64,000 bases of DNA from Streptomyces sp. B3I8 (lineage in GTDB: Bacteria > Actinomycetota > Actinomycetes > Streptomycetales > Streptomycetaceae): positions 6,213,501-6,277,500 of the forward strand of contig NZ_JAUSYN010000002.1 in the NCBI RefSeq assembly GCF_030816915.1. Reading direction: 5' to 3'. The notes under the pieces were generated by a model, which was not told the origin of the DNA, did no database searches, and was given only the letters and a program-made list of their open reading frames with translations. Of the stretch, positions 5,228 through 12,600 are shown piece after piece. Each line of letters begins with the position of its first letter. Position 1 is the first letter of the stretch. Both the position numbers and the translations under genes were made by a program.

Positions 5228-6220
5228 ATGGAAATCACGGAACGCGCGGAACTCACCGCACGGGCGTTCTGGCTGCGGCAGCCGGGACAGGGCGAGATCC
5301 GAGAGCTCGAACTCCCCGCGCCGGGGGAGGGAGAGGTGCTCGTCCGGGCGCTGTATTCCGGGGTCAGCCGGGGCACCGAGACCCTCGTCTTCCGGGGCGG
5401 CGTGCCCGGTAACCAGTACGGCGCCATGCGCGCGCCCTTCCAGGACGGCGACTTCCCCGCCCCGGTCAAGTACGGCTACCTCAGCGTCGGGGTCGTCGAG
5501 CGCGGGCCCGACGACCTGGTGGGGCGGAACGTCTTCTGCCTCTTCCCGCACCAGACGCGGTACGTCGTCCCCGTCTCCGCCGTCACCCTCGTGCCCGAGA
5601 GCGTGCCCGCCGGGCGGGCCGTGCTCGCGGGGACCGTCGAGACCGCCGTCAACGCGCTGTGGGACGCCGCGCCGTTGCTCGGCGACCGCGTCGCCGTGGT
5701 GGGGGGCGGGATGGTCGGGTGCAGCGTCGCCGCGCTCCTCGCCCGGTTCCCGGGCGTGCGCGTCCAGCTCGTCGACGCGGATCCGGCGCGGGCCGACGTC
5801 GCCCGCGCGCTCGGCGTGGACTTCGCCGCACCGGCGGACGCGCTCGGCGAGTGCGACCTCGTCGTGCACGCCAGCGCCAGCGAGGCGGGAGCACGACGCT
5901 CCCTCGAACTGCTCGCGCACGAGGGCACGCTGATCGAGATGAGCTGGTACGGGGACCGGATCGTCGGGCTGCCGCTCGGCGAGGCGTTCCACTCCCGGCG
6001 GCTCACCGTGCGCAGCAGCCAGGTCGGCACGGTGTCGCCCCGGGCGCGGTCGGGGCGGACGTACGGCGACCGGCTCGCCCTCGCCCTCGACCTGCTCGCC
6101 GACCCCGCCTTCGACGCGCTCATCAGCGGGGACAGCCCGTTCGAGGAGCTGCCGGAACTGTTGCCCCGGCTCGCCTCGGGCGCGCTGGGCGGGCTTTGTC
6201 ATCGGGTGACGTACGGCTGA
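5228..6220 (+). CDS. Zinc-independent MDR-type alcohol dehydrogenase (first gene of the unassigned cluster)
   Basis: 330-residue medium-chain dehydrogenase/reductase. The N-terminal GroES-like half reads GVSRGTET where zinc alcohol dehydrogenases carry the catalytic Cys (GxCGTD), so no catalytic zinc site is present. The Rossmann motif [11 protein letters not shown] is at about residue 155. This arrangement resembles the BchC-like subgroup. Start is the ATG at 5228 behind AGAGGGG; the longer frame from 5156 lacks a ribosome site. It heads the cluster that continues with the PTPS-like gene after a 263-bp gap. A redox step on a sugar or pteridine intermediate is inferred, not shown. Confidence 0.82.
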
Positions 6221-6483
6221 GTCGGGGCCGGGCGGCTGCTCGGGCCGGTTCCCGCGAGCGTTCCCTCGGCGTCTGCTTCGGTGCCCGGTCCGGTCCGTGC
6301 CCCGGTGCGCGTTCCGCGTCGGCCGGTCCCGTAGCCACCGCTGATCAAGCCGCGCAACCCGCGCTGAACAACCCGCGCCGATCGGCCGTACTACACGGCA
6401 TGCCTGGCCCGGCGAGGGCCTCCGTTCCCGGAACGGGGGCACCCGCCGGGCGATCAGACGCACCGCACCTGGAGGGTCGTCCG
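6221..6483. other. Intergenic spacer, no gene seen
   Basis: 263 bp of GC-rich sequence between the dehydrogenase and the PTPS-like gene. No conserved reading frame or strong hairpin was found. The only clear element is GGAGGG at 6471-6476, the ribosome site for the TTG start at 6484. Confidence 0.6.
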
Positions 6484-6882
6484 TTGTTCAGCATCACGGT
6501 CCGCGATCACCTGATGATCGCCCACAGCTTCCGCGGCGAGGTCTTCGGCCCCGCACAGCGACTGCACGGAGCGACGTTCCTCGTGGACGCCACCTTCCGC
6601 CGCCCCGAGCTGGACGACGACAACATCGTCGTCGACATCGGACTGGCCACGCAGGAACTCGGCGCCGTCGTCGCCGAGCTGAACTACCGCAACCTCGACA
6701 ACGAGCCCGACTTCGCCGAGACCAACACCTCGACGGAGTTCCTCGCGAAGGTCGTCGCGGACCGGCTGGCCCGGCGCATCGAGGACGGGCGGCTCGGCGA
6801 GGGGGCCCGCGGGCTGACCGGACTCACCGTCACCCTGCACGAGTCGCACATCGCCTGGGCGAGTTACGAGCGTGCGCTGTGA
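6484..6882 (+). CDS. 6-pyruvoyl-tetrahydropterin synthase-like protein lacking catalytic residues
   Basis: 132 residues with the PTPS/QueD fold pattern. TTG start at 6484 is chosen because GGAGGG lies 7 bp upstream and the protein then begins at the family's first beta strand ([16 protein letters not shown]). Zinc ligands His14 and His28 are kept, but the third is Ala30 (RLHGA instead of RLHGH). The catalytic Cys four residues before His28 is Ala24, and the LDHHYLND catalytic Asp-His pair reads LNYRNLDN (Asn67, Tyr68). The substrate-anchoring Glu120 (LHES) is retained. It may therefore bind a pterin or pyrimidine without doing standard PTPS/QueD chemistry. Its stop overlaps the glycosyltransferase start (GTGA). 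Confidence 0.82.
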
Positions 6883-8171
6883 GCGACGTGATCATCGACC
6901 GGAGCGCCCCGACGGCCCAGACAGCCCCGACGGCGCAGACGATGCAGACGGCTCCGGTGGCGCCGACGGCTTCGGTGGCCCCGACGGCAGTTCCCGTGGC
7001 CCCGACGGCCCGTCCCACGCTGGACTACGTCCCCGTCCAGCACGCCGCCCTCACGAACGCCGAGATCATCCCCATGTCCCTGCACACCCTGCACTTCGTG
7101 CTGCCGGCCGGCGTCGACGACCCCGCCAGGCCCAGCGGCGGCAACGCCTACGACCGCCGGATCTGCCTCGACCTCCCCGGCTTCGGCTGGCAGGTCGTCA
7201 AGCACACCGTCGGCGGCGACTGGCCCGACCCCGGCGCCGACGGCCGCGCCGCCCTCGCCCGCACCCTGCGCGAACTGCCCGACGACACCGTCGTGCTGCT
7301 CGACGGGCTGGTCGCCTGCGGCGTCCCCGAGGTGGTCGTCCCCGAGGCCGGGCGGCTCCGCCTCGCCGTCCTCGTCCACCTCCCGCTCGGCGACGAGACC
7401 GGGCTCGAAGCCGACGTCGCCGCCGCGCTCGACGCCAAGGAGCGCGAGACGCTGCGTGCCGTGTCCGCCGTGATCGGCACCAGCGACTGGGCCGTGCGCC
7501 GGCTCGTCTCCCACCACGGGCTCGCCCCCGACCGCGTGCACGTCGCCGCCCCCGGCGCCGACATCGCCCCCCTCGCCTCCGGCACTGACGGCCTCTCGCA
7601 ACTGCTGTGCGTCGCCTCCGTCACCCCGCGCAAGGGGCAGCACCGGCTGGTCGAGGCGCTCGCGACCGCCACCGACCTGCCGTGGAGCTGCGTGTGCGTC
7701 GGCTCGCTCACACAGGACCCCGAGTACGTCGCCGGGGTACGGGAGCTGATCACCGCGTACGGGCTCGGCGACCGGTTCCACCTCGTCGGGCCGCGCTCCG
7801 GCGCCGCGCTCGACGCCAGTTACGCCGCCGCCGACCTGATGGTTCTCGCCTCCTACGCCGAGACCTACGGCATGGCCGTCACCGAGGCGCTCGCCCGGGG
7901 CATCCCCGTCCTCGCCACCGACGTGGGCGGGCTGCCCGAAGCGGTGGGGCGGGCCCCGGACGGCGGGGTGCCCGGCATCCTCGTACCGCCGGAGGACCCC
8001 GCCGCGCTCGCCGCCGAGCTGCGCGGATGGTTCGGCGAGGCCGACGTGCGGCGCCGGCTGAAGGCCGCCGCCCGTGGCCGCCGGGCCGCGCTGGACGGCT
8101 GGGCCACCACCGCGCGCAGCCTCGCGGGGGTCTTCGGGCGGCTGCGGCCCGAGTCCCGGGAGGCGGCGTGA
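6879..8171 (+). CDS. Family 4-type glycosyltransferase (GT-B)
   Basis: 430-residue retaining GT-B glycosyltransferase. The GTG start overlaps the previous stop by 4 bp. The first ~45 residues are a disordered Ala-Pro-Thr repeat; the catalytic protein begins near [14 protein letters not shown]. The donor half carries [15 protein letters not shown] and the E-x7-E nucleotide-sugar signature at about residues 327-335 ([11 protein letters not shown]), followed by DVGGLPEAV. Translational coupling with the PTPS-like gene and the methyltransferase implies one pathway. Donor and acceptor are unknown; a nucleoside or pyrimidine-derived acceptor is an inference from the GTP cyclohydrolase next door. 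Confidence 0.86.
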
Positions 8172-11270: not shown

Positions 11271-11942
11271 ATGACAGACGTTGTCGGCGAACCGGTCGCG
11301 CGTGTGGTGAAAGCGCCGGCCGGCGCCACCGGGGTCACTCGCGTCGTGAATGCCCCGCTGCACACGAAGTACGGAGAGTTCGAAGCGGTCGGCTACCAGG
11401 ACAACGACCGCGGTGACGAGCAAGTGGCCCTGGTGTACGGCGACATCCAGGCGGAGGGAATGCTCGTCCGGCTGCATTCCGAATGCCTCACGGGAGACGC
11501 GTTCGGTTCCACGCACTGCGAGTGCGGGCCCCAACTCACCACGGCTCTGCGGGAGATCGTGGCCGAGGGGCGGGGCGTGCTGGTGTATCTGCGCGGGCAC
11601 GAGGGCCGGGGCATCGGACTGCTGGCGAAGCTGCGCGCGATGAAGCTCCAGTCGGAAGGGCTGGACACGGTCGAGGCGAACCTCGCGCTCGGACTGCCGG
11701 TGGACGCGCGGGACTACACGGTGGCCGCGGAGATGCTGCGGGACCTGGGGGTGCGGTCGGTGCGGCTGCTGTCCAACAACCCGCGCAAGCGGGAGTCGTT
11801 GGAGCGCCACGGGGTGAAGGTCGAGACGCAGGTGCCGCTGCTCATACCGCCGTGCGAGAACAACATCACGTACCTGCGCACGAAGCGGGAGCGCATGGAC
11901 CACTACCTGCCGCATCTGGACGCGGTCGTGCAGTCCTCGTGA
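11271..11942 (+). CDS. GTP cyclohydrolase II homologue with Tyr-to-Met change (predicted FAPy-forming)
   Basis: 223-residue RibA-type enzyme that opens the imidazole ring of GTP. The zinc ligands Cys72, Cys83 and Cys85 ([16 protein letters not shown]) and the GTP-binding GHEGRGIGL segment are intact. The residue matching E. coli Tyr105 (KIRAY) is Met124 here (KLRAM). In S. coelicolor SCO6655 the same Tyr-to-Met change is reported to stop the reaction at the formylated intermediate FAPy instead of releasing formate. The creatininase-like neighbour could then remove the formyl group. This gene is therefore more likely part of a special pathway than of riboflavin synthesis. Start ATG 11271 with AGGAA upstream. 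Confidence 0.93.
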
Positions 11943-12129
11943 CGCGGGGGCGGCGGGAGCGGGGCCGTCGTGCGCCGGTGCGCGGCGCGCGGCCGCTCCG
12001 CCGCTCCGGCCGATGGCGCGCCTTGTCCTCTCCCGGCCGTGCCGGTCGCGGTGTCCGTCCGCAGGGGTGGCCGGGCGCCTGCCGGGTACTCCTCCCGGAG
12101 ACGATGCCGCGCTCAGGAGGCTGGTCACC

Positions 12130-12600
12130 ATGGCCCGGAACGACGCCACACGGAACGATGCCGCGCAGGACGATGCCACGCAGAACGCCCTGCTCGCGCT
12201 GCTCGCCGAGCAGAAGGGCGGGGTGCTGGTCACCCTCAAGCGCGACGGACGGCCCCAGCTGTCCAATGTCGGCCATGTGTACTACCCGGACGAGCGGCTC
12301 CTCCGGGTCTCCCTCACCGACGACCGCGCCAAGACCCGTAACCTCCGGCGGGACCCGCGCGCCTCGTACCACGTGACGACGGCGGACCGGTGGGCGTACG
12401 CGGTCGCCGAGGGCACCGCCGACCTGACACCGGTCGCGGCGGACCCGTACGACGACACCGTCGAGGAACTGGTGCGCCTCTACCGCGACATCCAGGGCGA
12501 GCACCCCGACTGGGACGACTACCGCGCCGCGATGGTCCGCGACCGGCGGCTGGTGCTGCGCCTGCGGGTCGAGCGGGCGTACGGCATCCCGAAACGCTGA
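12130..12600 (+). CDS. PPOX-class (F420-dependent type) oxidoreductase
   Basis: 156 residues with the split beta-barrel of pyridoxamine-phosphate-oxidase-like flavin/deazaflavin reductases ([37 protein letters not shown]). ATG at 12130 follows AGGAGG at good spacing; the longer frame from 12013 has no such site. The first ~20 residues are an Asn/Asp/Ala/Thr repeat. It closes the GTP-cyclohydrolase cluster 187 bp downstream of the ribA-like gene. Cofactor F420 and a reductive step in the pathway are family-based guesses. Confidence 0.8.

Follow-up and report, generated by a model that had tools for sequence, protein, structure and literature searches.

We analyzed a gene cluster built around a GTP cyclohydrolase II in a 64,000-nucleotide stretch of DNA from Streptomyces sp. 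B3I8 (NZ_JAUSYN010000002.1, positions 6,213,501 to 6,277,500 of the forward strand; hereafter the window), part of a two-contig genome of 7.98 Mb. The original prediction, made from the letters of the window alone, had proposed a biosynthetic cluster of eight genes at 5228-12600. All eight genes were found at these positions, and the start/stop overlaps that had been claimed were likewise present, as GTGA at 6879 and 8168 and as ATGA at 9184. The genes and features of the locus are as follows.

4079-5083, minus strand: CDP-alcohol phosphotransferase (PF01066, Pfam 5.1e-13), with the motif DGxxDGxxAR...G...D in its sequence
5084-5227: divergent intergenic region between the phosphotransferase and dehydrogenase genes, a candidate shared operator or promoter
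5228-6220, plus strand: dehydrogenase (DH) of the medium-chain dehydrogenase/reductase family, BchC-like by sequence and polyol-dehydrogenase-like by predicted fold
6484-6882, plus strand: T-fold protein like 6-pyruvoyltetrahydropterin synthase (PTPS), TTG start, family PF01242, SCO6650 orthologue
6879-8171, plus strand: GT4 glycosyltransferase (GT; PF00534, 1.2e-28)
8168-9187, plus strand: S-adenosylmethionine-dependent methyltransferase (MT; weak Pfam match)
9184-10530, plus strand: flippase-like membrane protein of the LPG_synthase_TM family (PF03706, 1.6e-34)
10395-11237, minus strand: creatininase-family amidohydrolase (PF02633, 9.6e-66), proposed deformylase of 2-amino-5-formylamino-6-ribosylaminopyrimidinone 5'-phosphate (FAPy, also AFRPP)
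11271-11942, plus strand: GTP cyclohydrolase II with Met124 (PF00925, 6.3e-67), proposed to form FAPy
about 12130-12600, plus strand: PPOX/F420-type protein (Pfam/NCBIfam)
12610-13533: 3-hydroxyisobutyrate-dehydrogenase-like gene

Unlike the genes on either side, the creatininase gene is encoded on the minus strand; it meets the flippase-like gene tail to tail, with an overlap of 136 bp, and diverges from the GTP cyclohydrolase II gene. In the divergent intergenic region, an inverted repeat, GCCGCG (5146-5151) and CGCGGC (5161-5166), was largely conserved when the window was aligned with 43 Streptomyces loci (44 sequences in all), and 5146-5166 is a candidate operator or promoter shared by the CDP-alcohol phosphotransferase and DH genes.

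Eighty loci (L numbers below; genomes are given as G numbers) were collected via the PTPS-like protein as the best 80 of at least 576 confirmed matches, with flanks of up to 10 kb. They were mostly from Streptomyces, together with Actinacidiphila, Actinomadura, Phytohabitans, and Pseudonocardia, and the best-match choice over-represents Streptomyces. The DH, PTPS-like, GT, and MT genes were each present in all 80 loci, the flippase-like gene in 77, and the creatininase and GTP cyclohydrolase II genes in 74 each, and these seven genes occurred together in 74 loci. The six loci lacking both the GTP cyclohydrolase II and the creatininase genes comprised four that stop at contig ends (L066, L080, L082, and L095) and two that do not (L079 and L097), both of which have a RibD_C gene. 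A conserved linkage across genomes, the lack of which the original prediction had named as refuting it, was thus borne out for seven of the eight genes but not for the PPOX gene, which was found in 21 of the 80 loci at varying distance and was rejected as a cluster member. The 3-hydroxyisobutyrate-dehydrogenase-like gene, present in 10 of the 80, was rejected as well.

A set of 120 loci was made up of these 80 and of 40 stretches from other genomes of the class and phylum. By tblastn, the PTPS-like protein was detected in 120 loci, GT in 118, DH in 117, CDP-alcohol phosphotransferase in 100 (a count that includes fused and weak copies), the flippase-like protein in 98, MT in 97, GTP cyclohydrolase II in 95, creatininase in 83, and RibD_C in 41 (including weak matches in L184 and L185, neither of them a true cluster). 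The CDP-alcohol phosphotransferase gene lies outside the interval first considered, but its open reading frame (ORF) family occurred in 86 of the 120 loci and it belongs to the core of the cluster; in the far clusters L169, L174, L177, and L196-L198, it is co-directional and stands between the GTP cyclohydrolase II and DH genes. Other families of the class show this linkage too, as do, in a reduced form, Rubrobacter-like genomes of the phylum (a label suggested by close DH relatives with 61-66% identity), so the neighbourhood is not due to chance. The PTPS-like marker was found in 92 of 199 sampled Streptomyces and in 57 of 394 sampled genomes of the class. It is thus carried by nearly half of the sampled Streptomyces, yet no product of the cluster was reported in the literature searched, which is weak evidence because most subscription papers lay outside the search.

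The evidence on the first steps came from the GTP cyclohydrolase II. Its Met124 is aligned to residue 105 of 2bz0, which is Tyr105 of E. coli RibA, a position that we take to be of catalytic significance. For the 95 of 120 loci in which the motif could be read, this residue was set against the presence or absence of the creatininase gene. Where the residue was Met, His, or Leu, the creatininase gene was present in 83 loci and absent in one (L174), whereas it was absent from all 11 loci with Tyr. Nine of these 11 are true clusters (L184 and L185, without DH and GT, were dropped), and in one, L193, a contig of 3.8 kb, the absence is weak evidence; the Fisher value of 1.5e-13, obtained with all 11 Tyr rows, counts related sequences and not events. 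In a tree of 58 GTP cyclohydrolase II rows with Streptomyces thinned, the non-Tyr copies grouped together (44 rows, 97/90), six Tyr copies grouped with L003 and L004 of the window's own genome (100/99), and L163, L164, and L190 were placed elsewhere, with long branches flagged by the program. It therefore appears that GTP cyclohydrolases II of more than one lineage have supplied the DH-PTPS-GT set, in which case the common intermediate would be the deformylated pyrimidine.

Because the non-Tyr enzymes are accompanied by a creatininase gene in 83 of 84 loci and the Tyr enzymes in none of nine, the pattern gives good support to two interchangeable routes to 2,5-diamino-6-ribosylaminopyrimidinone 5'-phosphate, one by a Tyr enzyme alone and the other by a non-Tyr enzyme with the creatininase relative, which is likely a FAPy deformylase. 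In the creatininase protein, E65, H67, D76, and H146 were invariant and E197 was kept in 67 of 68 sequences; we take these five residues to be metal ligands. An ArfB-like function is proposed for this protein, not membership in the ArfB family. A FAPy-forming GTP cyclohydrolase II with separate deformylation, as originally predicted, gained support from both the Met at the Tyr105 position and the way in which the creatininase gene follows this residue, and we regard a FAPy route to the diaminopyrimidine phosphate as highly probable.

For the reduction that could follow, the window cluster itself has no RibD_C gene. In other clusters, RibD_C was confirmed by Pfam on L079, L083, L163, and L164, in the latter two of which it is fused to a Tyr-type GTP cyclohydrolase II. 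Against the archaeal reductase model TIGR01508 (cut-off 186), the in-cluster copies scored 95-163 bits (n = 4; L079, 132) and the own-genome copy 118, all below the cut-off; the best matches were mixed, and the label archaeal-type is not claimed for these proteins. The window's own genome encodes a reversed RibD, with RibD_C first and the deaminase second by Pfam, beside a Tyr-type GTP cyclohydrolase II (L204:9280-11299, with RibD at 9280-10419; C2 at about 3.334 Mb), and four further RibD_C matches. Around its RibBA-like GTP cyclohydrolase II copy, no RibD was found among the ORF starts read by eye. Reversed RibD was common in the sampled Streptomyces, and in another family two adjacent matches were found instead.

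Most of the genomes examined encode a RibD_C reductase, either inside the cluster or at another site, and the distribution of the two reductase forms was complementary. An L083-type RibD_C occurred in 14 of the 92 cluster-positive Streptomyces, on the PTPS contig within about 4 kb in 13 of them and on another contig in G820, and all 14 Streptomyces with this gene among the 199 searched were cluster-positive. None of the 14 had a reversed-RibD match, as against 77 of the remaining 78 cluster-positive Streptomyces; the single exception, G001, is a genome 79% complete, and a few other matches among the 77 are in pieces. Outside Streptomyces, the genomes of one family without an in-cluster RibD_C had a reductase-deaminase pair elsewhere in 16 of 16 cases (11 stretches inspected, five judged by coordinates), as against 0 of 14 genomes with an in-cluster RibD_C (nine inspected; five, including G060, by coordinates), among which G095 had a weak deaminase-only match and the in-cluster match of G083 extends through stops as far as query residue 327. 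This contrast left out 10 of the 40 genomes, namely three of family f5, in which no reductase was found, two with the fusion, and five Rubrobacter-like ones. A reductase acting in trans was rejected as a cluster-specific gene: reversed RibD, whole or in part, was also present in 36 of 107 cluster-negative Streptomyces, so only the complementarity was used, not simple co-occurrence. The complementarity suggests that the pathway would need reduction before deamination, and a reduced intermediate seems somewhat probable.

These genes also bear on whether the GTP cyclohydrolase II, creatininase, and RibD_C genes might form a backup riboflavin-type module, supplying riboflavin or F420 beside an unrelated glycolipid operon. 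The proposed chemistry as far as a ribitylamino-pyrimidine equals the archaeal or BrbF riboflavin route (PMC9478397), and the own-genome reductase-first RibD adjoins another GTP cyclohydrolase II, of the Tyr type. On the other hand, the genome holds three GTP cyclohydrolase II matches besides the window copy, one RibBA-like, apparently within a rib operon, plus two more, so the riboflavin need that the original prediction had named as a possible objection does not obviously explain the window copy. Furthermore, differing GTP cyclohydrolase II lineages are tied to the same DH-PTPS-GT genes, and no deaminase, lumazine synthase, or riboflavin synthase was found among the annotated cluster genes. 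The cluster is probably not simply one of riboflavin synthesis, and the backup-module explanation is distinctly improbable.

The PTPS-like protein of the window is the orthologue of S. coelicolor SCO6650 (PDB 3D7J). With canonical PTPS and QueD it shares the family PF01242, a conserved Glu, and two His positions that we assume to be Zn ligands. Compared with the PTPS chains 3i2b (human) and 2g64 (presumably of the C. elegans type), it differs in having Ala24 at the catalytic Cys, Ala30 at the second His of the HGH motif, and Asn67-Tyr68 at the Asp-His pair, the catalytic roles of these columns being taken as known. The catalytic Cys, the Asp-His pair, and one of the three Zn His are thus replaced, and the protein scored 33 bits against the QueD model (cut-off 89), which places it outside both PTPS and QueD. 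A13, H14, H28, G29, and E120 were invariant in all cluster copies that have a residue at the position (121 rows, of which one is truncated), and the Rubrobacter-like copies keep HGH and lack the Cys. Judged by these residues, the protein is not a PTPS, and it plausibly retains a purine/pterin-type site.

A bypass of folate synthesis, in which the cluster would replace GTP cyclohydrolase I, was rejected, as FolE was detected in all but one of 34 genomes that match the PTPS-like protein or the PTPS profile, or 33 of 34 (G594 and G613 in this set have no cluster, and the sole FolE-less genome, G690, is 82% complete). In the Rubrobacter-like genomes G641, G680, and G467, the folE matches lay in pieces inside long reading frames (552-864 amino acids), as if large insertions that keep the frame, for example inteins, had interrupted the gene. 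The Rubrobacter-like cluster versions are accompanied by a FolB gene (ORF family in 12 loci; Pfam on L179), which is consistent with a pterin intermediate, and it may be an ordinary folate gene.

The remaining enzymes were placed by family and by structure. DH was nearest the BchC model, far below its cut-off, and xylitol, sorbitol, and L-idonate dehydrogenases were among the ten best fold matches of its predicted structure. Solved relatives, including 3c48 and 7qsg, were matched by only the C-terminal half of GT; the entry name of 7qsg is D-inositol 3-phosphate glycosyltransferase. MT fell into no NCBIfam family, and a sequence search of solved structures gave no significant match. The flippase-like protein scored 38.9 bits against TIGR00374, below the cut-off of 43.2. 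In some far clusters, the CDP-alcohol phosphotransferase is fused to a sulfatase-homologous region, and adjacency to a sulfatase-family homologue also occurs. Because some fused members cross-hit, the tblastn result of 100 of 120 loci for the sulfatase-like family was dropped. The suggestion in the original prediction that the product is perhaps membrane-linked was strengthened by the CDP-alcohol phosphotransferase with its fusion to the sulfatase-homologous region, and gene content points to a product that would be glycosylated, methylated, or a pteridine.

The same genes could instead serve a soluble product, namely a pterin or aminopyrimidine with sugar and methyl groups (a cofactor, pigment, or antibiotic) that is secreted or stays in the cytosol, with the flippase-like protein and the CDP-alcohol phosphotransferase acting in export or as auxiliaries. 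PTPS, GT, and DH are the most widely kept genes (120, 118, and 117 of 120), some clusters have no lipid-type genes, and one ORF family near L169, L170, L195, L197, and L198 is a major facilitator superfamily transporter (Pfam on L169 only). Against a soluble product stand the retention of the CDP-alcohol phosphotransferase (100 of 120) and of the flippase-like gene (98 of 120), the fusion or adjacency to the sulfatase-family homologue, and other lipid-type genes in variant clusters, namely PAP2 in L159 and a PlsC-like match below cut-off in L179. We consider a soluble product rather unlikely, and a lipid-linked glycoconjugate as the end product falls just short of an even call.

Taken together, these findings suggest the following pathway. 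The Met-type GTP cyclohydrolase II would open GTP to FAPy, and the creatininase-family enzyme would take off formate to give 2,5-diamino-6-ribosylaminopyrimidinone 5'-phosphate. These two steps are strongly supported by the comparative genomics and by biochemistry reported for the S. coelicolor orthologue. A RibD_C-type reductase, which many relatives encode within the cluster and for which the reductase half of the reductase-first RibD elsewhere in the genome probably stands in here, would then turn the ribosyl into a ribityl chain ahead of any deamination, a step supported by the RibD complementarity. The later steps are read from enzyme families and linkage: the polyol-dehydrogenase-like DH may oxidize the ribityl chain, the catalytically altered PTPS-like T-fold protein may bind or cyclize the aminopyrimidine via its conserved Glu, and the GT4 enzyme and MT would attach a sugar and a methyl group, respectively. 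Finally, the CDP-alcohol phosphotransferase might join the head group to a phospholipid, or make its phosphodiester, and the flippase-like protein might carry the lipid-linked product across the membrane. For the whole, a dedicated GTP branch leading to a cell-envelope lipid that carries a glycosylated aminopyrimidine or pterin, we hold the balance to be even.

A different arrangement of the same enzymes would be an unbundled GTP cyclohydrolase I, in which several enzymes share out what FolE does in a single active site, namely opening of the ring, deformylation, an Amadori-type shift, and closure of the ring. GTP cyclohydrolase II, the creatininase-family deformylase, RibD_C (reducing C1'), the polyol-type DH (oxidizing C2'), and the Zn-free PTPS-like protein would then give a phosphorylated dihydropterin outside folate control, to be glycosylated, methylated, and attached to a phospholipid. 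We regard this arrangement as unlikely; if true, actinobacterial envelopes would contain pterin glycophospholipids of a new class.

Several observations weigh against the reading as a dedicated branch to a lipid-linked product. No metabolite is assigned to the cluster. The association of non-Tyr residues with creatininase is essentially that of one clade, and the Fisher value overstates the number of independent events; in addition, the stretch of L174, a non-Tyr locus, holds no creatininase gene, and L175 lacks both that gene and GTP cyclohydrolase II. The RibD complementarity partly follows clades, and among the 77 reversed-RibD matches, that of G760 adjoins the PTPS gene, that of G844 covers RibD_C only, and that of G801 the deaminase part only (residues 259-378). 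The fold matches of DH are nearly tied. In the stretches of L159, L166, and L178, all of one family, four genes were not found (GTP cyclohydrolase II, RibD_C, CDP-alcohol phosphotransferase, and flippase-like), and the latter two are also missing from the Rubrobacter-like stretches; lipid coupling is therefore not universal. Lastly, the creatininase protein lies outside the NCBIfam ArfB equivalog (36.8 bits against a cut-off of 180) and below the cut-off of its best NCBIfam match, MftE (145 against 172 bits).

The MftE match might be taken to mean that the creatininase-family, PPOX, and DH genes are remnants of a mycofactocin-like peptide maturation system. The score is under the cut-off, however; no radical SAM or MftA-type gene was found among the annotated window genes, the PPOX gene is not conserved, and the presence of the creatininase gene tracks the GTP cyclohydrolase II residue instead. 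The cluster is probably not a mycofactocin one, and such an origin appears extremely improbable.

In S. coelicolor, SCO6655 reportedly stops at FAPy owing to Met120, according to a 2006 study, and SCO6650 is said to have no PTPS activity; we know of no product assigned to the SCO6650/SCO6655 locus. The numbering implies that SCO6650-SCO6655 would be the same run of genes as the present cluster, with which it is linked by the orthology of the PTPS-like protein to SCO6650. SCO6655 was tabulated as a GTP cyclohydrolase II of riboflavin metabolism in PMC2853524. The present analysis adds to that locus its distribution across genomes, a CDP-alcohol phosphotransferase, a RibD_C partner, and the pattern that ties the Tyr position to the creatininase gene, and the purpose of the SCO6650 and SCO6655 proteins, an old question, becomes directly testable.

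ArfC is part of the archaeal start of riboflavin and F420 synthesis. The archaeal ArfA-ArfB-ArfC route has the same reaction order, with ring opening in which the formyl group is kept, deformylation, and reduction before deamination (partly after PMC9478397). It differs in that the ring-opening enzyme of the cluster is a GTP cyclohydrolase II variant in place of ArfA, and that the cluster intermediate would feed the DH, PTPS-like, and GT enzymes and not lumazine or F420. In the riboflavin synthesis of Rhizobiales, BrbF, a creatininase-annotated formamidase established by biochemistry, removes formate from FAPy/AFRPP, which lends support to the deformylation step proposed here; its FAPy-forming partner enzyme is described there as not yet known (PMC9478397). 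BrbF serves riboflavin, whereas in the window cluster a FAPy-type GTP cyclohydrolase II directly adjoins the creatininase gene; the Met-type enzyme suggests the kind of partner missing in the BrbF work. The pairing of the residue change with a separate deformylase gives evidence, at the genome level, for a FAPy route in bacteria that does not serve riboflavin.

Some minor observations were also made. G020, G759, and G060 each have two PTPS-like gene copies on separate contigs, which suggests that clusters have been duplicated or gained horizontally. An inositol-monophosphatase-family gene stands between the GTP cyclohydrolase II and CDP-alcohol phosphotransferase genes in L096 (7495-8331, Pfam) and L172 (7279-8094, same ORF family). 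In the window's own genome, the GTP cyclohydrolase II domain L004 lies in a 450-amino-acid ORF (L206:6548-10583, C2 at about 7.36 Mb) whose start reads as FMN reductase-like and which adjoins what reads as a WD-repeat protein; we presume a possible resemblance of this stretch to a toxoflavin-like cluster. At the edge of the window (2-2392, minus strand), an N6-adenine DNA methylase domain protein with weak helix-turn-helix matches is encoded.

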